In this document: one piece after another, positions 17,408 to 30,027 of the stretch | Layout of the letters: each line of letters begins with the position of its first letter | Numbering within the stretch: position 1 is the first letter of the stretch | DNA from: a bacterium | Lineage (GTDB): Bacteria > Electryoneota > JAOADG01 | NCBI GenBank assembly: GCA_026417415.1 | Contig: JAOADG010000008.1 | Location: 62,001 to 126,000, forward strand | Reading direction: 5' to 3' | DNA length: 64,000 nucleotides | Program-made: the position numbers and the translations under genes | Notes under the pieces: model-generated | The model's input: only the letters and a program-made list of their open reading frames with translations | What the model was told of the DNA's origin: nothing | Databases searched by the model: none

Positions 17408-18138
17408 ATTTATCAATCCATTGGAAAAATTTTATTCAAAATGATCCGATTCAAGTTGGTTTTTCCAGTATTTCTGATGGATGCATGTCCTTTTATAGAG
17501 GAAAAAAGGAACAAGTTATCCAAAATCGGGAAAGCTACTTTTCAAAATTCTACATCCAACTAAAAGATACTTGTTGGGCAAGTTTAGTTCACGGCGATCA
17601 AGTTGCTTTCGTTCAGGAAACAGATCGATCCAAAGGGGCATTAAGCAATCCAACAGCAATTTCAAAAACCGATGGAATGTGGACCACTACTAAAAATCTC
17701 ACACTCTGTACAACACATGCGGATTGTATTCCGATGTATTGCTATTCATCAGAAAATAGTGCAGTAGGGATTGCCCATTGTGGTTGGCGAAGCATCGTAA
17801 AAAAGTTACCCGAAAAGATGATACTTAAAGCAATTGAACACTTCCACTGTACCTTACCATCATTTCGTATTCTCTTAGGGGTAGGAATTTGTTCAAACTG
17901 TTTTGAAGTATCAAAAGAGATTGTTCATCTTTTTCCAGAAAATACAATTACGATTATAGACGAAAAGTATTTTGTGGATTTAAACTTGTGTATAACTCAA
18001 CAACTACAGAATGTGGGGTTAGATAATTCGCAAATCATTGTCACCAATCTTTGTTCCCGTTGCTCTTCCGAATATCCATCCTACAGACGAGACCGTGAAA
18101 AGGTTCAACCCGCAGTTGCGTGGATACGTACCTACTAA
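17383..18138 (+). CDS. pgeF: PgeF/YfiH-family purine nucleoside phosphorylase (laccase-domain protein)
   Basis: A 251-residue protein of the YfiH/DUF152 family, once called multicopper polyphenol oxidase and now known as a zinc-dependent purine nucleoside phosphorylase/adenosine deaminase or peptidoglycan-editing factor. Key metal and active-site segments are LVHGDQV, TTHADCIPMY and IAHCGWRSIV, with CSNCFEVS and CSRCSSEYPSYRRD later. ATG 17383 within the mutM end is preferred over the TTG at 17374. Its stop overlaps the stop of the convergent pdhC by 4 bases. Confidence 0.9.
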   Translation: MPNSKASLNLSIHWKNFIQNDPIQVGFSSISDGCMSFYRGKKEQVIQNRESYFSKFYIQLKDTCWASLVHGDQVAFVQETDRSKGALSNPTAISKTDGMWTTTKNLTLCTTHADCIPMYCYSSENSAVGIAHCGWRSIVKKLPEKMILKAIEHFHCTLPSFRILLGVGICSNCFEVSKEIVHLFPENTITIIDEKYFVDLNLCITQQLQNVGLDNSQIIVTNLCSRCSSEYPSYRRDREKVQPAVAWIRTY

Positions 18139-19460
18139 TCAAGAATTAGTGAAATGGGATGTTCAAGGAATTTTCTAACGATCCCCAAAAATTCTGCTCC
18201 CATAGCACCGTCTATGGCACGATGATCGGCACTTAAAGTAACGTACATCCGTTGTTCAATAGCAATTTCGCCACCACGAACCACTACTGCTTCGCGTACC
18301 CTACCAATGGCTAATATTCCCGCTTCGGGTGGATTAACAATAGCGGTAAAATGCTCAATGTCCATTTTACCTAAATTCGAAATTGTAAAGGTACTTCCAG
18401 AAAACTCTTCTATTTGTAGTTTTTTGGCAAATGCTTTATCGATTAGTTGCTTAGATTCTTCTGCAATTTGAGAAAGTGATTTTTTATCTGCATGAAAAAT
18501 GACGGGAGTAATTAAACCTTCAGGAAGTGCAACTGCGAACGCCACGTGAACATCATGATACTGTACGATAGAATTTTCACGAAACGATACATTCATTTGT
18601 GGATACTGATGTAAAGCTCGTGATACCGCACAAAGAACAAAATCGTTAATGGTTGGAACCACTGATTTTCCCAATTCTTTCCATTGTTCACGGATTTGCT
18701 CCACAGCATCCATCCGAATGTCCATCGTTAAAGTGAACATAGGGGTTTGCCACCCTTCGGCCATTCTGCGAGCAATTGCTGATCGCATTTGAGTAAGCTC
18801 TAAAATAGTCCCCTCACTACTTGTCGGTTGTTTTGGAGATTGAATTTTGGGGGGAGTAGGGGATGGAACAGAAATTGGATGTGGGGTTTGTTCTTTCATT
18901 TTAGCATAACGTTCTATATCTTCACGAATGATGCGTCCGTCTGGACCACTCCCTTTGACTTGTGTGAGATCTACCCCTAATTCTGCTGCCAAGCGCAATG
19001 CTAAGGGCGATGCCAGAATCCGTGATGATGGTTCACGAACGACAGTTTCTTTTTTATCTTTTAGAGTTAAGGGGGATATCTTTTGGACATCTTTGGGTGG
19101 TACATCAACTCCTTCTACTTTTTTGATTTCTTCGGTTTTTTTCTGTAGGTCTTTATTTTCGGTTTCAATTGATTTAGATTCTTGACGAAAAGAAGTGGGT
19201 TGAGATTCTAAGGGAACCGTTCCAACTTCTCCTAATATAGCAAGGACTTCGCCTACGGGTGCAGTACCACCGGATGGGACAAGGATTTCAAGTAAAATCC
19301 CCTCTTCAAAAGCTTCAAATTCCATTGTGGCTTTATCAGATTCGATTTCTGCCAATACATCACCGGGTTCTACCTTATCTCCGACCTTCTTTTTCCATTC
19401 AATAATTTTACCTGTGGTCATAGTGTCGGAAAGCCGAGGCATCGTCAATTTGGTAGGCAT
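18135..19460 (-). CDS. pdhC: Pyruvate dehydrogenase complex E2, dihydrolipoamide acetyltransferase
   Basis: The E2 core transfers the acetyl group from lipoate to coenzyme A. The 441 residues contain a single lipoyl domain with Lys43 in ESDKATMEFE, a Lys/Glu/Pro-rich linker, a peripheral-subunit-binding domain (ASPLALRLAAELGVDLTQV, about 150-185), a second Pro-rich linker, and the catalytic domain ending with SADHRAIDGAMGAEF where His413 and Asp417 are the catalytic pair. It is the last gene of the lut-pdh run, 15 bases after pdhB. No E3 (lpd) gene is in the window. Confidence 0.96.
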   Translation of the reverse strand: MPTKLTMPRLSDTMTTGKIIEWKKKVGDKVEPGDVLAEIESDKATMEFEAFEEGILLEILVPSGGTAPVGEVLAILGEVGTVPLESQPTSFRQESKSIETENKDLQKKTEEIKKVEGVDVPPKDVQKISPLTLKDKKETVVREPSSRILASPLALRLAAELGVDLTQVKGSGPDGRIIREDIERYAKMKEQTPHPISVPSPTPPKIQSPKQPTSSEGTILELTQMRSAIARRMAEGWQTPMFTLTMDIRMDAVEQIREQWKELGKSVVPTINDFVLCAVSRALHQYPQMNVSFRENSIVQYHDVHVAFAVALPEGLITPVIFHADKKSLSQIAEESKQLIDKAFAKKLQIEEFSGSTFTISNLGKMDIEHFTAIVNPPEAGILAIGRVREAVVVRGGEIAIEQRMYVTLSADHRAIDGAMGAEFLGIVRKFLEHPISLILD

Positions 19461-19475
19461 AAATTTTCTCCAAAG

Positions 19476-20456
19476 TTAAATGAGATACAAACTTCTTTTT
19501 ACCGATTGAATTACATCAGCAACTTGAGGTAGTGCTAGATGTTCTAAATGTTTGTTGTAAGGCATAGGAACATCTTTTCCGTTCACCTTCTCAATAGGTG
19601 CATCTAAATAATCAAAGACATTTTTTTGAATTCTATAGGAAATTTCTGAACCTACAGAAGAAAAGGGTAACGCTTCTTCAACAATCACAGCACGATTTGT
19701 TTTTTTAACAGATTCGAAAATTAAGTTTTCATCTAATGGACGTAATGTTCTTGGGTCAACGATTTCAATTGAAATTCCTTCTTTTTCCAATTCTTTAGCT
19801 GCTGCTAAAGCAGTATGAATGGCTTTTCCCCATGCAATAACGGTACAATCCGTTCCTTCACGTTTGATATCGCCCACACCAATGGGAATCGTAAACTCAC
19901 CATCGGGTACTTCACCTTTGTAACTATAAAGAACCTCTGATTCCATAAAGATGACCGTGTTATCATCGCGAATAGCACTTTTTAATAATCCTTTGAAATC
20001 TTTAGGAATTGATGGAGCGATTACTTTTAATCCGGGAAAGTGCGTAAACAAAACCTCTAACGATTGACTGTGTTGAGCTGCAAGTTGATGAGCCGCACCA
20101 TTGACACCCCGAATGGTTAAAGGCATATCAAATTGACCACCCGACATATATCGCATTTTCGCAGCATTATTAATGATTTGATCCAACGCTAAAATAGAAA
20201 AGTTAAAAGTCATCATTTCAATAATCGGTCGTAAACCCACCATTGCAGCACCCACTCCCACTCCTGTGAAACCCAATTCAGTAATCGGTGTATCAATCAC
20301 GCGCATCGGACCAAAGCGGTCTAATAAACCTTGGCTTACTTTATACGCCCCATTGTAAAATCCGACCTCTTCGCCCATTAAAAAAACATTCGGGTCCCGC
20401 TCCATTTCTTCAGCCATTGCTTGGTTGAGTGCTTCTCTAACCGTGAGTTCTGCCAT
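19476..20456 (-). CDS. pdhB: Pyruvate dehydrogenase E1 component, beta subunit
   Basis: Beta chain of the heterotetrameric thiamine-diphosphate E1. The 326 residues start MAELTVREALNQAMAEEMER and carry FLMGEEVGFYNGAYKVSQGL, the ThDP-contacting glutamate region, then RVIDTPITELGFTGVGVGAA and a C-terminal transketolase-like domain (VDPRTLRPLDENLI, VIVEEALPFSSVGSEI). The frame is open further upstream, but ATG 20456 matches the family start. It overlaps pdhA by 20 bases. This E1 type is specific for pyruvate or related 2-oxoacids; the neighbouring lactate genes favour pyruvate. Confidence 0.95.
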   Translation of the reverse strand: MAELTVREALNQAMAEEMERDPNVFLMGEEVGFYNGAYKVSQGLLDRFGPMRVIDTPITELGFTGVGVGAAMVGLRPIIEMMTFNFSILALDQIINNAAKMRYMSGGQFDMPLTIRGVNGAAHQLAAQHSQSLEVLFTHFPGLKVIAPSIPKDFKGLLKSAIRDDNTVIFMESEVLYSYKGEVPDGEFTIPIGVGDIKREGTDCTVIAWGKAIHTALAAAKELEKEGISIEIVDPRTLRPLDENLIFESVKKTNRAVIVEEALPFSSVGSEISYRIQKNVFDYLDAPIEKVNGKDVPMPYNKHLEHLALPQVADVIQSVKRSLYLI

Positions 20457-21426
20457 AGTATTCTCCAGTGTAAATATCAGTAAACAACTCAGAATCGTCA
20501 GGTTCGGGTGATGAATCCGAAAACTGAAGCGCATCAGTTACAATATTTTTCACTTCATCTTCAATTTTTTGATAATCCGATTCATCCCAAAGATGATTTT
20601 GAATAAGATAATTTTTTAAATTCAATATCGGATCGTGCTTTTTCTGTTCTTCTACATCTTCTTTGGTTCTATAATGGCCATGAATGGGATCCGACATGGA
20701 ATGGCCACGATAGCGGTAAGTGCGTGCTTCAATCAATGTGGGTAAACTCCGACCACGCGCACGTGCTACCGCTTCATTGACAGTATTGTAAACTTCAATA
20801 ACATCCATTCCATCTACATGGGAACGAGCCATATCATAAGCGTATGCTTTTTGGGATAAGTCATAAATGGAAGAAGCCCGCTCAACGGGAGTACCCATTC
20901 CGAAACGATTGTTCTCACAAATGTAGATCACAGGCAAACGCCAGATAGATGCTAAGTTCAACGATTCGTGAAATGCACCTTGGTTGATAGCCCCCTCACC
21001 AAAAAAGCAAAGAACCACATCATCACGTTTACGATATTTAATAGCCCAACCAACTCCAGTTGCTATCGGGATTTGAGCCCCTACAATCCCATTGCCACCC
21101 AAAAACTTCTTTTCTTTTGAAAATAAATGCATTGAGCCACCTTTCCCTTTAGAACATCCGGTAACTTTACCGAATAGTTCTGCCATTACTTCTCGGGCGC
21201 TCATTCCTTTTGCCAAAGCATGGCCATGATCACGATAAGCGGAAAGCACATAATCCGAATCTCTTAATGCATTAATCGCACCTACAGCCACTGCTTCTTG
21301 GCCAATATACAAATGGCAAAAACCGCCGATTTTTCCTTGTTGATAAGCTTGTGCAGTTCTTTCTTCAAAACGGCGCAATAGAACCATTTCTCTTAAAAAT
21401 TTGTAAGCGAGTTCACGCTCGATCAT
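20437..21426 (-). CDS. pdhA: Pyruvate dehydrogenase E1 component, alpha subunit
   Basis: Alpha chain of E1, binding thiamine diphosphate with the beta chain to decarboxylate pyruvate. The 329 residues include RRFEERTAQAYQQGKIGGF, LYIGQEAVAVG, YRDHGHALAKG, the ThDP motif in FFGEGAINQGAFHESLNLAS...ICENN, and the phosphorylation-loop-like YRYRGHSMSDP. ATG 21426 follows AGAGGAA; an upstream in-frame TTG at 21441 is less likely. It overlaps lutC by 14 bases, so lactate oxidation and pyruvate oxidation genes are joined in one transcript. Confidence 0.95.
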   Translation of the reverse strand: MIERELAYKFLREMVLLRRFEERTAQAYQQGKIGGFCHLYIGQEAVAVGAINALRDSDYVLSAYRDHGHALAKGMSAREVMAELFGKVTGCSKGKGGSMHLFSKEKKFLGGNGIVGAQIPIATGVGWAIKYRKRDDVVLCFFGEGAINQGAFHESLNLASIWRLPVIYICENNRFGMGTPVERASSIYDLSQKAYAYDMARSHVDGMDVIEVYNTVNEAVARARGRSLPTLIEARTYRYRGHSMSDPIHGHYRTKEDVEEQKKHDPILNLKNYLIQNHLWDESDYQKIEDEVKNIVTDALQFSDSSPEPDDSELFTDIYTGEYYGRTHG

Positions 21427-22063
21427 AGAATTCCTCTTCAAGAATCAGAAGTGATACGAATTTAGGACCGTGGACACCTGTCACCAACACTTTTTCAATA
21501 TCTGCTGTACGTGATGGACCACCAATCATGACCCATCCGCTAATCCCTTTTAACCGTAATGCGTTGAATGCATCATCCATCGTTTCATATATATTTTTAC
21601 TATTCAAAAGATAAATTACGTGTTCAGGTAACACAGCAATACTTCTGGATTGGGTAGAATCCCAATGGACCAGGATGGTTCCATTTTCCACAATTCCAGC
21701 AGTTGCAATACAAATTGAACAGTTCACTTGATCAATCAAACCATTTTCAATAAAAAAACGTTTATGCGGAAATCTTTGTTTTAAAATCGTTTCAAAGGGT
21801 TTAAGTGCTGATGAGATGGCAATAGTTTCACCTATTGGGTAAGTTCCAAAATGAGAAGACAGCGTGAAAAACAAATCATCAAAATTTTTCAAAGGGTCAT
21901 AACAATAACCACCATTACGCTCCCATTCAATTTTCATTTTGAAGAGAATCGAACCATCAGAAAACGGAACATTTTGTCTAAAAACTTCAACAAAATCAGT
22001 TTTTGAAATATGTGCTAAAGAACTTTCTATGGATGCAAGGATTCTTTCTTTATCAGCGCTCAT
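21413..22063 (-). CDS. lutC: LutC/YkgG LUD-domain lactate utilisation protein
   Basis: A 216-residue LUD-domain protein. The fold is recognised from the segment CIATAGIVENGTILVHW, typical of LutC (ATAGIAETGT), and MIGGPSRTADIEKVLVTGVH, the near-universal C-terminal motif (GPSRTADIE-x3-GVHGP). LutABC together oxidise L-lactate to pyruvate. The start overlaps lutB by 11 bases and the end overlaps pdhA by 14. Length is normal for the family. Confidence 0.92.
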   Translation of the reverse strand: MSADKERILASIESSLAHISKTDFVEVFRQNVPFSDGSILFKMKIEWERNGGYCYDPLKNFDDLFFTLSSHFGTYPIGETIAISSALKPFETILKQRFPHKRFFIENGLIDQVNCSICIATAGIVENGTILVHWDSTQSRSIAVLPEHVIYLLNSKNIYETMDDAFNALRLKGISGWVMIGGPSRTADIEKVLVTGVHGPKFVSLLILEEEFYDRA

Positions 22064-23453
22064 GGTAAGTTCTCTTTTTCCATTGTTGTCTAAAAGTCAA
22101 TGGTGCGCGTCGTAAAGGTGCGCGATAGGTTGACCACGGTTTGAACAATTTCATCATTCCAAATTTAGATGCAAACCCTAACAAATACGTCAACAATACA
22201 TAGAAAGCATTGTTGGAGAACATCCATTTCCAGATTTTGAAACCTACTTTTTCTAACCAAGGTCTTAAAGATGCTTGTTCTGCAATTCGTTGACGTAAAG
22301 TAAGCAATTGTTGAGGCAAAGGAACTTTTACAGGGCAAACATCACCGCAAGCAGTACATAAAGTTGAAGCGTAAGGTAAAAGATGAGCATTTTGAAGTCC
22401 TATTAGTTGAGGTGTGATAACAGCTCCGATAGGCCCCATATACGAATAACCATAAGCGTGGCCACCTGCTCTCCGATAGATGGGGCATACATTCAGGCAA
22501 GCACCACAGCGGATACACAAAAGCGATTCGCGAAGTTCAATATCTTTCAGCATTTTACTTCTATTGTTATCAAGTAAAATCACATGAATTTCTTTAGGTC
22601 CATCCAATTCATTCGGTTGCCTTGGTCGTGAAAGAAAGTTGGTATAGACATTAATTCGTTGTCCAGTTGCGCTTCTGGCTAACATTCGTAAAAATAGCGG
22701 TAAGTACTGCTCTTTGGCTAAGATTTTTTCAATTCCACAAAGAGCGATATGAATGTTTGGTAATGAAGTCGTCAATCTAACGTTTCCTTCGTTTTCAATA
22801 ATGACAATCTTACCGCTATCAGCACAAGCAAAATTGACCCCGGATATTCCTGCATCAGCAGTTAAAAACCGCTGACGTAAAATGGTTCTTGCCTGCTTAG
22901 TAAGTTCTTCTGGATCTTCGGTATAAGGCAATTGCAGTTTCTGGTGAAAGAGGTCTGCGATTTGTTTTCTATTTAAGTGAATGGCTGGTCCAGTAATATG
23001 AGAAGGGGGTTCATTGCGTAATTGAACAATGTATTCGCCTAAATCTGTTTCTACAACTTCGTACCCATTACTTTCTAAAAAATGATTCAAATGAATTTCT
23101 TCTGTGGTCATGGACTTGGATTTTACAATCCGTTTCGCACTTTTGGAGGAAAGTATCAAATGGATGGTCTGACAAGCAGATTGGGCATCCCAAGCATAAT
23201 GAACTTGAACACCATTTCTTACACAGTTTTCTTCAAATTGAAGAAGTAACTCATCTAAATGATCAAGGGTGTATTTTCGAATTCTATACGCAGCGTTGCG
23301 CATCTCTTCCCAATCCGAAAAATCTTGAACGGCTTGATTTCGCACCATTTGGGAATGGTGCATTGCTTTGGTAAGTGCGTTTTGCAAATCGGCATTGTCT
23401 AATGCTTCTTTGGCTACTTTAGAAAAACGATTGGGGTAAAAGTTAGCGTTCAT
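22053..23453 (-). CDS. lutB: LutB iron-sulfur LUD-domain lactate oxidation protein
   Basis: A 466-residue protein: an N-terminal LUD domain (about 50-290, with KSKSMTTEEIHLN and GISGVNFACADSGKIVI), then two 4Fe-4S clusters, CIRCGACLNVCPIYR and CTACGDVCPVKVPLP, and a C-terminal helical tail. This is the full-length LutB/YkgF architecture. It moves electrons from lactate within the LutABC complex at the cytoplasmic face. The start overlaps lutA by 4 bases (ATGA). Confidence 0.95.
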   Translation of the reverse strand: MNANFYPNRFSKVAKEALDNADLQNALTKAMHHSQMVRNQAVQDFSDWEEMRNAAYRIRKYTLDHLDELLLQFEENCVRNGVQVHYAWDAQSACQTIHLILSSKSAKRIVKSKSMTTEEIHLNHFLESNGYEVVETDLGEYIVQLRNEPPSHITGPAIHLNRKQIADLFHQKLQLPYTEDPEELTKQARTILRQRFLTADAGISGVNFACADSGKIVIIENEGNVRLTTSLPNIHIALCGIEKILAKEQYLPLFLRMLARSATGQRINVYTNFLSRPRQPNELDGPKEIHVILLDNNRSKMLKDIELRESLLCIRCGACLNVCPIYRRAGGHAYGYSYMGPIGAVITPQLIGLQNAHLLPYASTLCTACGDVCPVKVPLPQQLLTLRQRIAEQASLRPWLEKVGFKIWKWMFSNNAFYVLLTYLLGFASKFGMMKLFKPWSTYRAPLRRAPLTFRQQWKKRTYHER

Positions 23454-24175
23454 TGATAAATTAAAAGTTCAGGAGCATACCAAAATTTTAACGGCAAAAA
23501 GCGCTTTTGCGACCTTGCTTGCAAATGCATCAAACAGGACATATCCAATGATGCGATCCCATCAACCTTGTGTTGCATTGCATAATCCAGTTTGGAATCT
23601 GCCATAGATATAGAAATTTCTGGAAATTTTACCGCAAATGTTCCGCCAAAACCACAACAAGCATCAAAATCATTTGTATAAACCAGTTCAAGGTTAGGGA
23701 TTTGTTGCAATAGTGTCTCCGCAGCAGATACAATTTTTAACTCCCTTAAAGCATGACAAGAGCGGTGAAATAAAACTCTCAAAGGGGATTTGAAAGAATT
23801 CGGTAGGGTCGGATTCTGAAGAACATTTACCCAAAAGTCACAAAACTCGAATACTCGATTTTTCCATTTTACCCATTGTTGTTCTAACTCTGGTGGAAGA
23901 TGAAGTTCATGGTAATGGATTTTTATCATTGAACAGCAAGACCCTGATAAAACCACAATCGGTTCATTGGTCATCGTTAAAAGATCAATCAACGGTTTTG
24001 CCACTTCGTAAGCATCTTTTCTGTATCCAGAGTTAAATGCAGGTTGTCCACAACAAAGTGCTTTTTCTTCAAATACTACATCACAGTTGGCTTGTTTTAA
24101 CAATTGAACTGCTTTCCAAACTGAATCTGGAAAGAACTGGTCCATAAAACAGGGGACAAATAACCGTACTTTCAC
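23450..24175 (-). CDS. lutA: LutA Fe-S oxidoreductase subunit (CCG-domain protein)
   Basis: A 241-residue protein with two copies of the cysteine-rich CCG domain seen in LutA/YkgE, GlpC and heterodisulfide reductase B. CALCCGQPAFNSG-type motif (ALCCGQPAFNSGY) and SCCSMIKIHY form the first; FHRSCHALREL and DACCGFGGTFAVK the second. It acts with LutB and LutC in L-lactate oxidation. The start at 24175 lies 9 bases after the stop of the large TPR-NYN gene, which places that gene in the same transcription unit. No LutR regulator or lactate permease is nearby. Confidence 0.94.
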   Translation of the reverse strand: MKVRLFVPCFMDQFFPDSVWKAVQLLKQANCDVVFEEKALCCGQPAFNSGYRKDAYEVAKPLIDLLTMTNEPIVVLSGSCCSMIKIHYHELHLPPELEQQWVKWKNRVFEFCDFWVNVLQNPTLPNSFKSPLRVLFHRSCHALRELKIVSAAETLLQQIPNLELVYTNDFDACCGFGGTFAVKFPEISISMADSKLDYAMQHKVDGIASLDMSCLMHLQARSQKRFLPLKFWYAPELLIYQ

Positions 24176-24184
24176 TCTATTTAC

Positions 24185-27100
24185 CTATAACTGAAATACT
24201 TCCTGGATATTGTAAAAGTCAACGTTTGGAATAGAATGAAAAGATAAAGAGATACCTTCAATAAATGAAAAGAACTTAACCTGCTTTCCTTGTTGACTTA
24301 ACCATTTTGCTAACATTGAATAATCTCCATCACCATATAAGAATACCAACGTCTCAATTTGAGGATGAATGGATAAAATTTTACCAATTTCAAGATACAA
24401 TTTCAAATCTGAACTTGTAGTGGATGCGCAACTTGGGATAAGAGTAGAATAACCTAAGGATTGATAGGGGCGTATATGAAATACATACGGTTCAACATCC
24501 CAAGTGGCTAAACTGATCGGCTGACAAACCTGTGTAAATTGGGGTTCTACCCATTCTATCAGTCGTTCTGCGATCTTAAGAAATGTTGAAGGATCTTTAT
24601 CATCCCAATGAAGCCCTGACTGAGTAGATCGGTCTTTAAGTTTCGTAAATAAGTTTTCATGATCGATAACAATTACTGAGGGAGATTTTTTTTCATTGGT
24701 TAGGAACGTTGATTTTTTTAGCGATTGGATTGATTGAGGAAGGTATAGGGGAGTTATGATTTGCAATTTTTGATCACGTGTTTCAACAATTCCGATATCT
24801 TTAAGATAAATTACATCAGGGGAATTCTCATCTTCATATAACCCATTGGATAAGCGATCAAGTAATTCAAAAGCATAACGATGGGATGGTAATAAAAGCA
24901 TACCCCATTTAGAAAATAAAGTAGTATTTGCTGCAAATTGATTCCCATGTATAATCACATGAGATGCTACCATTCGTGTTTGAAAAGTTTCATGGAACTC
25001 AGTGAAAATAGATTTCAATATCTCTATTACAATCTGATAAACACCACCCGATAATTCAAAAAGAAGTTCCTTGGCGCGTTGTGAAATAGCATAAATATCG
25101 CTTGTAATTTCTTCAATAATTGTGTTTACTTGTTCTTGATTTAGAGATGGTAAATGAACAATTTGTAGTGAACGCCAAAATGGATGGGCAAACTTTCTGC
25201 GAATTTCGTATAAATCTTCAGTAGCAATAAACCAAGCAAATTCTGCACACTCTGTCAATTTTAAACAAATATCCAAAAAATGACCAATGGGTTCTGCTTG
25301 TTGCTCAGTATCCCATCCTTGTGCAAAACTTGTCAATAATACCACAATCCGTTTTTTGTGACTGAAATTGTGTTTTACCCATTTTTTAATGGTTTCAACC
25401 TTTTGATAAAGTAAATCGTAATTTTCAATTGGTTCAAAATCTTCTATCCCTAATTGGTGGCTAAATTCACGAAGCCAAGAAATGATGTTTATTAAATCCA
25501 AAGTTCCTGTTGGAGATGATAAGAATACATAGGGATGGGAAAGCGTTTTGGCTTCAGTTTGCAAATTATTTAAACATACGTCAGCACCAAATCCAGCGGG
25601 TGCTTCAAAGACCAAAACGTCTCCGGGAATGCCAGATGTGATGTGTCGTCGCGCTTTCATCAAAACTTCTGGAAATAGATCAAGCAAAGAAATATTATTG
25701 ACTGTAGGATAGGATGTTTCACGGTTTGCTGTTCGGTAGAGTTTCATGATGAAATCATAGCGTCCATCCGTAGAAAACAAGCGAATACCCAGTGGGATGG
25801 AACCATCGTCACTTTCCCATTCCACTGCAATTTCTTTTCGTAAAGGATCTTGATGGTTAGTGGCGACTAAATTGAGTTTACCAGTCCAATTAGGAATAGG
25901 AGAAACTTGCCATTCCAATTGCGGGGCTACGGGTTGTGGCAACTCAAATGCAAGGATTCCTCTTTCAGCAGAACTTTCAATAAACGCTTCTGTATCAACT
26001 TCACCTTTAGAAAGTTTTTCTAAATAAACCTGATTGACTGAAAATTGTACACTTTGGTTTCTTAAGTGGAGTATGCGAAGATACTTGTTCAATTTTTGGT
26101 TAGGAACACCTTCCATTTTTGCATATTCTAACCCTTGTTCAATATCATCAAAAAGCGAGTACTTGATGCAAAAGTCAAGGTAACTACACCAATTTTCTTG
26201 TTTAGATTTTTTTGATGCTTTGCTTTGGGCTGTAGTTAATGCACGTTTAAAAAAGGCCTCTTTAGCCAATTGAATATCCCCAGCAATCTCTGCTAAGTTT
26301 CCTAAATGATGCCAATTTGCCCAAAACCAATGATATTTTTCTGCACGCTCTTTGAAATGTTGGATCCCTTCTTGAATTAATCCTTCTTCTTGAAAGTAAG
26401 CAAAATCTTTATCCAATTGTGCAGGGGATACCAACGGATCATTAATATCTGAAAGTTCTGATCCTTTTTTACCTACTACTACTGAGGCCTCATTAATAAA
26501 ACGTTGAAGCAAGCGTTCAGTGATATCAGGGAGATTGTTTTGAATGGATAAATACAGTCCTACAGGTAGCCACTCGACTGATTCAAGCATTTCAATACGC
26601 GAAGGAACTTCATGTTCTACTTGATTTCGTAACATCAAACCCAAAACCGCAGCAACATAAGAGCGCCGATGAGTATTCCTTTCGTAAAGTTCCATTGGAC
26701 AAAGTAAATCATATGCCGCTTCCAATTGATCGGTGCGCACATAAATGCTGGCAAGGTTAATGATGGTAGCAAAATCTTGGCGTTTAGAGGCGATCACTTG
26801 TTGAAGTAAACGCTCAGGAACCGAATAATCTTTTTCAGATAGGTTTTCTTGAGATAAAATTAAAGCATAAGCGTACCATTCTTTAACACCAAGATCATCC
26901 GGGGCAAGCTCAAATGCTGAACGAAACTTTTCTACGGCATCTCCTAAATCTGTTTCTTCAAACAGAATTTGTTGTCCTTCACGAAACAATTCAAAAGCAT
27001 CTTTATCTGTTTCACGAATAGTTTTAAGTGGGCGCCACCATTCCAACCATCGTTCAAAACTATTGGATAAAAGTTGTATTCTTCTTTCTGCAATATCCTG

Positions 27101-27880
27101 AATCGTTTGGATAATTTCATTGTAATCTGAAGAAAGATCCCAATCCGCAATCCTTTTTGACTCTTCATAGGAGAATAAATCTATCCATTCCGCTTCAATT
27201 TCCCCGATTGCTATTCTACTTGCGATATCTCCCGCTAAATAATTCCTAGAAATCTCACGAAAATGATGTTTCAAGGGGTTGTTCGGAACAGTAAAAGTAT
27301 AGTTCCAGCCAAAGCGCAGATTTTTTCTTAATAAATTTCTTCGCACATCATCATCTGGTGTACTGTTCCACATTTTTTCCCACGATTTCCAAACCACATC
27401 ATCAGTTAAACGATTTAGATCGATTCCATTGGGAAGACGGTCCACATTACCTTTGAGAGAAAGCAATTTGCGCATACGCTGTTTTACTCTACTTTTTAGG
27501 CGATCCAAATCATCCCATTTAGGACTGGAAACGCTGGATAGGAGTGCTTGTTTTAATGCCCCTAATGAACGTTCGCGCCAATCTGATGAATCTGCAAGTT
27601 GGTAAGAGGTAAATGCTAATTTTTCACTCAATTCAAAAAAATTTGCATTAAAAAGTTCTATTGAAAGCCGATAAGCAATATTGGTACAATCGCTAACTGC
27701 AATTTCACGATATTGAAATGGATTCTTTTGATATTCTTCTACAGAGAGTTTTGTAGTACTAAGCTGTTCGTAGAAATTGGTTTTATCTTGGAGGGTTAAT
27801 ATTTCTATTGCTTCGGAAGATAATTGAATGATTTTTTCCATGAATTCTAAAAGAATAGATTTTGCTTGTTCGTTAGACAT
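24185..27880 (-). CDS. Large TPR / degenerate STAND-like ATPase / NYN-nuclease protein
   Basis: A 1231-residue cytoplasmic protein with no signal peptide. Residues 1-290 are helical with no family recognised. About 290-640 contains TPR-like pairs (LGDAVEKFRSAFELAPDDLG). About 650-740 is beta-rich. About 752-960 resembles a STAND/AAA core, but the P-loop position reads EAPAGFGADVC without Lys, and the Walker B position reads RIVVLLTSFAQ without Asp, so ATP hydrolysis is doubtful. A winged-helix-like stretch follows. The last 160 residues are a NYN (PIN-like) domain: VIVIDHENLF (Asp1073, Asn1076), SSDLKLYLEIGK (Asp1158), LYGDGDYSMLAKWL (Asp1184, Asp1186), so the nuclease acids are intact. ATG 27880 follows GAGG and overlaps mutY by 8 bases; ATG 27892 is an alternative. 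RNA cleavage is inferred from the family. Confidence 0.8.
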   Translation of the reverse strand: MSNEQAKSILLEFMEKIIQLSSEAIEILTLQDKTNFYEQLSTTKLSVEEYQKNPFQYREIAVSDCTNIAYRLSIELFNANFFELSEKLAFTSYQLADSSDWRERSLGALKQALLSSVSSPKWDDLDRLKSRVKQRMRKLLSLKGNVDRLPNGIDLNRLTDDVVWKSWEKMWNSTPDDDVRRNLLRKNLRFGWNYTFTVPNNPLKHHFREISRNYLAGDIASRIAIGEIEAEWIDLFSYEESKRIADWDLSSDYNEIIQTIQDIAERRIQLLSNSFERWLEWWRPLKTIRETDKDAFELFREGQQILFEETDLGDAVEKFRSAFELAPDDLGVKEWYAYALILSQENLSEKDYSVPERLLQQVIASKRQDFATIINLASIYVRTDQLEAAYDLLCPMELYERNTHRRSYVAAVLGLMLRNQVEHEVPSRIEMLESVEWLPVGLYLSIQNNLPDITERLLQRFINEASVVVGKKGSELSDINDPLVSPAQLDKDFAYFQEEGLIQEGIQHFKERAEKYHWFWANWHHLGNLAEIAGDIQLAKEAFFKRALTTAQSKASKKSKQENWCSYLDFCIKYSLFDDIEQGLEYAKMEGVPNQKLNKYLRILHLRNQSVQFSVNQVYLEKLSKGEVDTEAFIESSAERGILAFELPQPVAPQLEWQVSPIPNWTGKLNLVATNHQDPLRKEIAVEWESDDGSIPLGIRLFSTDGRYDFIMKLYRTANRETSYPTVNNISLLDLFPEVLMKARRHITSGIPGDVLVFEAPAGFGADVCLNNLQTEAKTLSHPYVFLSSPTGTLDLINIISWLREFSHQLGIEDFEPIENYDLLYQKVETIKKWVKHNFSHKKRIVVLLTSFAQGWDTEQQAEPIGHFLDICLKLTECAEFAWFIATEDLYEIRRKFAHPFWRSLQIVHLPSLNQEQVNTIIEEITSDIYAISQRAKELLFELSGGVYQIVIEILKSIFTEFHETFQTRMVASHVIIHGNQFAANTTLFSKWGMLLLPSHRYAFELLDRLSNGLYEDENSPDVIYLKDIGIVETRDQKLQIITPLYLPQSIQSLKKSTFLTNEKKSPSVIVIDHENLFTKLKDRSTQSGLHWDDKDPSTFLKIAERLIEWVEPQFTQVCQPISLATWDVEPYVFHIRPYQSLGYSTLIPSCASTTSSDLKLYLEIGKILSIHPQIETLVFLYGDGDYSMLAKWLSQQGKQVKFFSFIEGISLSFHSIPNVDFYNIQEVFQL

Positions 27881-29111
27881 TTTTATCCTCATGATGTTCT
27901 AAGTGATAACCGTTATGTTGAAGGACAAGTTTTGTAGCTTTAGGAAAAGGAAAGTTTGATAATTGGTGGATTGGAATAAATTTTAATTTTTCAGCACTGT
28001 TCGCTTTGAGTTTCCCGTTTAGACGTTTAACCTGAAATGGGTACATCAGAATCTTAAAATGAGTAAATGCATGTTTAACTGGAGCGAACGATTTGATTAC
28101 TTCCACTTGCAATCCTGTTTCTTCAAAAAATTCGCGTACGATTGCTTCTTCAGGTCGTTCGTTTTCATTTACTTTTCCACCAGGAAGCTCCCATAATCCA
28201 CCTAAAAAATCGCTTTGTTTTCGTAATCCGAATAAAACTTTTTGATTTTTTTCCAGAATACCTACAGCGACTTTCACGGTGGGAATTTTTTGCTTTTTTA
28301 GGGTGGGTGGATATTGTACTTGTGACTGATGTTGAAATGCTCGACAGGTTAGAGATACAGGGCATTCACAACAACGTGGTTTTTTGGGAATACAAACTGT
28401 TGCTCCTAATTCCATTACACTCTCTATCACCGTACACAATTGTTTCTGAAGTTCATCTTGTTGAAAAAGTGAAATTTCTTCGGCTTTATTTTTCCAAATC
28501 AGGATCACCTGTTGAAAAATATCCCTTAAAAGTTTTTGATCTCGTGAATTTGAGAAGCGAAGATTCAATAGAAACCAGCGTGAAATCACTCTGCTGATAT
28601 TTCCGTCTAAAATGGGATAAGGAATTCCAAAAGCAAAGACGGCTAAAGCGTGGGCAGTGTATAGACCAATTCCTGGTAACCGTATCAACTCGTGAATTTG
28701 GAAGGGAAATTGTTCATCCGTGTGAACTATTTTTGCACATTCATATAGCATTCTTGCACGACGATAATACCCTAAACCTTCCCAAGCTTTATAAACCGTC
28801 TGGATATCTGCATCAGCCAATGTTTTTAAGGTTGGAAATTGAGACATCCACTTCAAATAAAATGGAATAACAGTGGTCACTCTTGTTTGTTGCAACATTA
28901 TCTCGCTAACCAAAACTCGATAGGGAGTACGATTCATTCTCCAAGGTAAGTTCCGTTTATGGCTATCAAACCATTGATACAAAATTTCCATCTTTGGAAT
29001 AAAAGGAATGAGTGAATCAAACTCAGGACGATTTGTGTGGTCGTTTTCTTTGGTTAATTGTTTGTTCGTTTTTTGGATCTGTGTATTTTTTGTTGTTGGT
29101 TTTCTATACAT
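27873..29111 (-). CDS. mutY: A/G-specific adenine glycosylase MutY
   Basis: It removes adenine mispaired with 8-oxoguanine. The protein is up to 412 residues: RTPYRVLVSEIMLQQTRV with the catalytic Glu, LPGIGLYTAHALAVFAFG (helix-hairpin-helix) with the Asp in PILDGNISRV, the 4Fe-4S cysteines C-x6-C-x2-C-x5-C in CIPKKPRCCECPVSLTC, and a C-terminal NUDIX-like domain with GGKVNENERPEEAIVREFFE that recognises 8-oxoG. The complete Nudix box is unusual, since in most MutY it is degenerate. The start is uncertain: ATG 29111 is one base from the divergent gene start, while ATG 28991 (MEILYQWFDSHKRNLPW) is nearer the family start. It heads the leftward run with the TPR-NYN gene. Confidence 0.94.
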   Translation of the reverse strand: MYRKPTTKNTQIQKTNKQLTKENDHTNRPEFDSLIPFIPKMEILYQWFDSHKRNLPWRMNRTPYRVLVSEIMLQQTRVTTVIPFYLKWMSQFPTLKTLADADIQTVYKAWEGLGYYRRARMLYECAKIVHTDEQFPFQIHELIRLPGIGLYTAHALAVFAFGIPYPILDGNISRVISRWFLLNLRFSNSRDQKLLRDIFQQVILIWKNKAEEISLFQQDELQKQLCTVIESVMELGATVCIPKKPRCCECPVSLTCRAFQHQSQVQYPPTLKKQKIPTVKVAVGILEKNQKVLFGLRKQSDFLGGLWELPGGKVNENERPEEAIVREFFEETGLQVEVIKSFAPVKHAFTHFKILMYPFQVKRLNGKLKANSAEKLKFIPIHQLSNFPFPKATKLVLQHNGYHLEHHEDKNV

Positions 29112-29112
29112 A

Positions 29113-30027
29113 ATGACTGCTTTAGTAAAAAATTCAATCACATTATTAGATGGTGCACTTGGAACCGAATTAGAACGTAGAGGTTGTTCTCTTCCTATAC
29201 CTCTCTGGTCGGCATATGCTCTTATGGAACATACGGATCTGGTTGTAAAAATCCATCAAGATTATGTTCAAGCAGGTTGTGATGTTTTAACAGCAGCAAC
29301 CTTTCGTACCGCACCCTATACCTTCAAAAAAGTAGGTTTATCATTGCATAAGGCAGAATATTATACCAATCTTGCTATTCAATTGGCACGTACTGCCACG
29401 AAATTAACTCAAAGAACCGTGAAAGTTGCTGGTTCGGTAGCACCGCTTGAAGATTGTTATCAACCCGAACGAACACCTTCAAACCACACGCTGTTTATTG
29501 AACACCAGCATCACATTGAAAATTTGGTGAAAAGCGGTTGCGATGTCATTCTTATTGAAACTATGCCAACTGTACGTGAGGCAATTATTGCCACGCGGAT
29601 TGCATTACAATACAATTTGCCAGTGTGGGTTTCTTTGCAAACGAATAAAGATGGTACTGCTTTTTATGATCAATGTTCACCGAATGAATTGTTACAGTTA
29701 TGTATATTGCCAATTCAACCTGAAGTTATCTCACTGAATTGTTCATCTATTGTTGCACAATTTCAAATGTTATTAAAGTTATCGCAACTCCCTTTCAAAT
29801 CTTTTTTTGGTTGTTATCCGAATGTAGGAAAATTTGATTCAAATTCTCAATGGTCATTTCAATATCAATTCAATATTTACGATTTTATTGATCAATTTGC
29901 TAAAACAGTCGCTTTAATTCCAAAATTGAAAATGATAGGAGGTTGTTGTGGTACAACCCCTGAGCATATATCCTATTTGAGAGATGCAATTGATCGAAAA
30001 GAAATTCGCGAAATTATTGTTGAGTAA
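29113..30027 (+). CDS. Homocysteine S-methyltransferase family protein
   Basis: A 304-residue TIM-barrel methyltransferase. N-terminal LLDGALGTELERRG, VLTAATFRTAPYTF, DVILIETMPTVREAI and the zinc cysteines in SLNCS and GGCCGTTPEHI are the signatures of the MmuM/BHMT family, which moves a methyl group from S-methylmethionine or betaine to homocysteine. The donor cannot be told from sequence. The frame is open upstream to 29008, but ATG 29113 is where homology starts. It is divergent from mutY with start codons one base apart and convergent with nadA, with a 14-base overlap. Confidence 0.87.
   Translation: MTALVKNSITLLDGALGTELERRGCSLPIPLWSAYALMEHTDLVVKIHQDYVQAGCDVLTAATFRTAPYTFKKVGLSLHKAEYYTNLAIQLARTATKLTQRTVKVAGSVAPLEDCYQPERTPSNHTLFIEHQHHIENLVKSGCDVILIETMPTVREAIIATRIALQYNLPVWVSLQTNKDGTAFYDQCSPNELLQLCILPIQPEVISLNCSSIVAQFQMLLKLSQLPFKSFFGCYPNVGKFDSNSQWSFQYQFNIYDFIDQFAKTVALIPKLKMIGGCCGTTPEHISYLRDAIDRKEIREIIVE

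Follow-up and report, generated by a model that had tools for sequence, protein, structure and literature searches.

Within a lactate-pyruvate operon, between mutY and lutABC-pdhABC, lies a gene for a large protein that joins tetratricopeptide-like repeats, an eroded AAA+/STAND-like core and a C-terminal NYN (PIN-like) domain in which the acidic residues are intact. Judged from its sequence, the core of this protein, here called X, is a decayed STAND, and X is a member of a real but rare TPR-STAND-NYN family. We give an even chance to the reading that X is a chromosomally fixed, putative endoribonuclease of the NYN class, which would be gated by a partner and would process or degrade cellular mRNA, perhaps that of its own operon. 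What the sequences show directly is the domain order, the intact NYN acids, the loss of the Walker residues in two genera, a distant homologue whose switch is intact, and the tight packing of the gene with its neighbours.

Gene position and conserved synteny

Protein X (1231 aa) is encoded on the minus strand at positions 24188..27880 of the window, that is, of the whole 64,000-nucleotide stretch of DNA that was analysed. An ORF check of the window places the open reading frame at 24185-27892, with the stop codon at 24185-24187; the start is likely to be the ATG at 27880, just before which stands GAGGA, a ribosome-binding sequence. All neighbouring genes of the block are encoded on the same strand. 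Upstream of X, mutY (adenine glycosylase with a NUDIX domain; 27873..29141) ends with a stop codon at 27873-27875, and its last 8 nt are shared with the start of X. Downstream, lutA (CCG domain; 23450..24175) starts at 24175, leaving a gap of 9 nt, and is followed by lutB and lutC (21413..23453) and then by pdhA and pdhB (E1 alpha/beta) and pdhC (E2), which together occupy 18135..21441. The gene order on the strand of X is mutY, X, lutA, lutB, lutC, pdhA, pdhB and pdhC, and both the coordinates and the same-strand packing agree with the operon that the first-pass annotation, which named no strand, had described. Scans for promoters and terminators returned no more sites than in shuffled sequences. 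At its upstream end, the longest mutY ORF runs into a divergent homocysteine S-methyltransferase ORF (29008-29141); the true starts of both genes probably lie inside these longest ORFs, with a shared divergent promoter region.

A full-length orthologue of X, 44% identical and with the same eroded motifs, is encoded in a genome of another genus (G023). The block nadA, mutY, X, lutA, lutB, lutC, pdhA, pdhB and pdhC is collinear in the two genomes, with two exceptions: G023 has an extra ORF before pdhC, and in the window a methyltransferase gene on the opposite strand separates nadA from mutY. Both the start/stop overlap of mutY with X and the 9-nt gap between X and lutA are common to both. At 44%, the identity of X between the genomes is comparable with that of mutY (44%), lutA (52%) and lutC (33%), and the GC and GC3 of X resemble those of its neighbours in each genome. 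Conservation differs along the protein: the TPR region is the best conserved, at 59% identity, with the NYN domain at 37% and the values for NYN and core spanning 35-37%.

Domain architecture: an eroded switch and a retained NYN domain

The N-terminal region (residues 1-290; 27011..27880) is all helix in the predicted model, 49% identical in the G023 orthologue, and homologous to the corresponding part of the distant homologue G072 that is described below; its conserved motifs are RKNLRFGWNYTF and ERWLEWW. It is followed by TPR-like helical repeats (about residues 291-590; 26111..27010). In the window copy, the Pfam matches to TPR_CcmH_CycH (7e-7) and TPR_19 (2.8e-5), around residues 308-393, both fall under the cut-off, and TPR_19 scores above it in the G023 orthologue and in the G072 homologue. 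A Foldseek search with the repeat region retrieves TPR superhelices such as OGT and CTPR, so that sequence repeats and superhelical fold both identify this part as TPR. Between the TPR and the NTPase-like parts, the model has a beta-strand domain of five strands (about residues 641-735; 25676..25960), and a beta-rich stretch appears to occupy the corresponding place in G072, as far as can be read from its sequence.

The core (residues 736-915; 25136..25675) receives no Pfam match of its own from sequence models. Its predicted structure has alternating alpha and beta elements and a P-loop-like turn, EAPAGFG, with a pLDDT mostly of about 55-85, and matches AAA+ proteins of the ORC/Cdc6 type, with a plant NLR lower in the list; the TM-scores are modest. 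Where GxxxxGK[ST] is expected, residues 759-767 of X read EAPAGFG-A-D, a P-loop devoid of its Lys and Ser/Thr; at these two positions the window copy has A and D and the G023 orthologue V and N. The acid of the Walker B strand (residues 845-850) is likewise absent in both. The lysine and acid expected of an active STAND are thus missing from both genera and present in G072, whose core (residues 901-1025) aligns weakly and collinearly with that of X (hhalign E=0.007). The combination of an AAA+/STAND fold with eroded Walker motifs, as seen in a model of moderate confidence and in the alignment to the G072 core, is that of an inactive STAND. The following lid or winged-helix-like region (residues 916-1065; 24686..25135), with an SGG motif at 944-946, is modelled at low confidence and is collinear with TGGHP...FSTW...GIFREQDGKLSI in G072.

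The NYN domain (residues 1066-1231; 24188..24685) retains Asp1073, Asn1076, Asp1158, Asp1184 and Asp1186. The window copy reaches only E=0.0072 against PF01936 (17.3 bits over residues 1153-1207, below the cut-off of 24.2). The assignment is nonetheless firm because its relatives score well above this cut-off, the G023 orthologue at 8e-13 (49.6 bits) and G072 at 4.8e-14 (53.5 bits). A two-sequence profile of the C-terminus aligns with eight stand-alone NYN proteins of the same phylum (hhalign 98.8%, E=1.4e-16). The best PDB match of the predicted fold is VPA0982 (2QIP; Foldseek E=1.6e-6, TMt 0.74), a PIN-like fold, and the two-sequence profile also finds this protein (7.9e-6). D1073, D1158 and D1184 are conserved in the alignments, and by alignment they correspond to D13, D118 and D143 of a CRISPR-associated NYN protein from B. 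fragilis, an Mn-dependent single-strand RNase whose activity is abolished by D13A (PMC11346440). X is the sole NYN-related gene detected in the window genome and in G023.

The main features read from the letters in the first-pass annotation hold up in these comparisons. The degenerate STAND-like core, said to have lost the P-loop Lys and the Walker B Asp, lacks both in two genera and is well supported because the G072 homologue carries the same domain order with intact motifs. The C-terminal NYN domain, said to have all its acidic residues, has kept the three Asp in X and in G023 and scores strongly in its relatives; structure prediction found both an NTPase-like (ORC/Cdc6-type) and an NYN fold.

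Could the nuclease itself be on its way out? X might be mainly a scaffold or pseudoenzyme, with a TPR and a dead STAND that bind partners and an NYN domain that is left over and in decay. Conservation is indeed concentrated in residues 100-590, the STAND is already dead, and the NYN domain of the window has drifted far: it is the most diverged copy, with a tree branch of 1.84 as compared with 0.22 for the G023 orthologue (24188-24685 in the window and L002:4651-5145, respectively), and its sequence may be under relaxation. Against this, both genera still have all three catalytic Asp at an NYN identity of 37% and the G023 orthologue scores strongly as NYN, and we regard the scaffold reading as improbable.

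A distant homologue, known systems and the question of defence

An N-terminal profile run over 386 genomes found a homologue of 1430 aa with the same domain order in another phylum (G072; E=1.4e-37). Here the ATPase motifs are all intact (P-loop GIKRVGKTS, Walker B LLFDEF, lid TGGHP), and matches to AAA_16/ATPase_2 of about 3e-5 fall just under the cut-off. The homology to X extends over both ends of the protein (blastp 6e-29 for the TPR part and 6e-20 for NYN; hhalign about 1e-22 each). The neighbours, named from reading their sequences, are pfkA, rsmI, a carbon-nitrogen hydrolase and a lytic transglycosylase, with no lut genes. Convergent to the NYN homologue, the same genome has a 1752-aa ORF (L088:30-5288) with tandem radical-SAM/B12-binding-like units and repeated CNDH motifs.

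The TPR-STAND-NYN family is rare within the genomes searched. X is present in two of the 39 genomes searched from its phylum, both in one family, and G072 is the sole carrier among 7 genomes of its own phylum and about 350 sampled from other phyla. Matches in G143, G156, G265, G279 and G309 cover the TPR only, and the proteins of the last four, when read, are ordinary TPR proteins; searches of the phyla to which G156, G309 and G265 belong brought no further members. Scans of GTDB contigs, whether the query was X by itself or the two-sequence alignment, returned nothing; these scans are insensitive as they require exact short peptide matches. Outside the window, the same domain order was found in G023, in the same operon, and in G072, beside pfkA and rsmI. 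Pfam, NCBIfam, PADLOC and the literature searched yielded no described family of this architecture; the first-pass annotation, too, had not recognised it as a described system. The component domains are of known kinds; within the reach of these searches, their combination, and the pairing of an intact with an eroded switch, are new.

With NYN/LabA-like nucleases (PF01936; VPA0982 2QIP, the NYN domain of MARF1, the B. fragilis NYN) X shares a PIN-like fold, three Asp, and homology at the level of profile and predicted fold. Whereas the bacterial NYNs compared stand alone or have short C-terminal extensions, that of X lies at the end of a 1231-aa TPR-STAND protein. STAND NTPases with TPR (AP-ATPase-, MalT- and ATPase_2/AAA_16-type) resemble G072 in their AAA_16/ATPase_2-like core, intact motifs, GGHP lid and TPR in the same chain; in X, by contrast, the TPR is N-terminal and NYN C-terminal, and the window copy lacks the residues by which NTP is normally bound and hydrolysed. 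The inactive STANDs (iSTAND, iSTAND2, BrxB/BrxF, the PglW C-terminus and the type-4 PglZ N-terminus) are like X in having an AAA+/ORC-STAND fold with eroded Walker A and B motifs coupled to a nuclease. X differs from iSTAND modules in that it keeps lid/winged-helix-like parts, is not accompanied by partner genes of the BREX or MoxR-vWA kind, does not evolve fast when compared with its neighbours, and can be set beside a relative whose ATPase motifs are intact. Two further sets of matches, to Protein A in PDB searches and to Csa3/CARF in PADLOC (window copy, E 0.016-0.024), are weak and short and find no support from orthologue or fold.

The likeness to inactive STANDs raises the question of whether X is an anti-phage sensor and effector, in which the TPR and the inactive STAND would sense nucleic acid or protein of an invader and unleash the NYN RNase, as in the iSTAND-nuclease fusions of BREX (PglW, PglZ). 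The layout is that of a sensor, a STAND and a nuclease, inactive STAND domains have been proposed as nucleic-acid sensors (PMC8195603, PMC12839542), and PADLOC has a LabA-like NYN nuclease family whose domain G023 matches at 2.5e-6. That bare NYN domain is the sole match of note in PADLOC, where no system protein was matched. X is syntenic inside a metabolic operon in two genera; MoxR-vWA, PglX/PglZ and other BREX partner genes are absent near X, which has no other defence or mobile genes beside it, and MoxR-vWA and BREX partners are equally absent near the G072 homologue, which neighbours pfkA and rsmI. The base composition of X matches its neighbours and its divergence is like that of mutY and lutA. 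While sensing iSTANDs are fast-evolving (PMC12839542), the TPR half that would act as the sensor is the most conserved part of X (59%, as compared with 37% for the effector). Searches of plasmid and viral collections did not return X, the viral pattern scan being insensitive. The hint at defence in the first-pass annotation is therefore unsupported, and a role in immunity seems to us a poor prospect.

Proposed function

The reading that we favour is the partner-gated RNase of cellular mRNA processing or decay. By likeness to the characterised bacterial NYN enzyme, the NYN domain would cut single-stranded RNA with Mn2+, and the TPR superhelix would bind a protein or ribonucleoprotein partner by which the nuclease is positioned or set free. 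In the ancestor, the STAND switch would have released the nuclease under NTP control; the dead core of X would no longer cycle NTP and would serve as a rigid platform or as a nucleic-acid-binding surface. X would be made together with the mutY-lutABC-pdh transcript and possibly act on it, its own operon being the simplest candidate target.

Stand-alone NYN genes also occur close to lut genes in another family of the phylum, a weak hint that X might act on its own operon. In G019 (L068:1-5272), lutA, lutB, lutC and a stand-alone NYN gene follow each other on one strand, and in G016 (L065:4538-10390) and G017 (L066:5070-12000) a stand-alone NYN is divergent from lutABC with one gene between. These lut-adjacent NYNs adjoin an ABC transporter ATPase gene, accompanied in G016 and G019 by a probable permease gene. 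Near lut loci of family f3, ORFs at L071:14595-16223, L072:1436-3076 and L075:12221-13795 contain masked (N) stretches, which appear in translation as runs of the letter X. A derivation of the NYN of X from a lut-adjacent NYN of another family was considered and set aside: the tree does not resolve it, and X branches outside.

In a narrower form of the partner-gated RNase, X would be a dedicated regulator of lactate and pyruvate use, its cleavage target being the mutY-lutABC-pdh mRNA or the RNA of a regulator of that operon. X is fixed directly before lutA in two genera, and stand-alone NYNs lie near lut in another family as well, which makes 5 of about 13 genomes with both lut and NYN, from two families; these counts are few, phylogenetically dependent and noticed post hoc. 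The NYN tree does not group X with the lut-adjacent NYNs, and the linkage is absent in G072. It is important to point out that operon membership need not imply regulation, and the order mutY-X-lut could be an inherited coincidence; in G072 the gene lies by pfkA. These observations leave room for the suggestion in the first-pass annotation that X might regulate the operon post-transcriptionally; dedicated control of lactate and pyruvate use is, in our view, rather unlikely.

More speculatively, the TPR-STAND-NYN family may record how an RNase switch once gated by NTP became fixed as an RNase that needs a partner and no NTP, is made together with a lactate-to-acetyl-CoA operon and controls it. 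X would then be a domesticated STAND nuclease that has become a metabolic regulator, a scenario to which we attach a low probability. STAND-nuclease fusions are usually read as immune devices. If this scenario is true, the intact and the decayed switch, the latter locked into a metabolic operon by synteny, would constitute a natural experiment in which sensors become household regulators, and X offers a concrete RNase candidate for testing the roles of bacterial NYN proteins.
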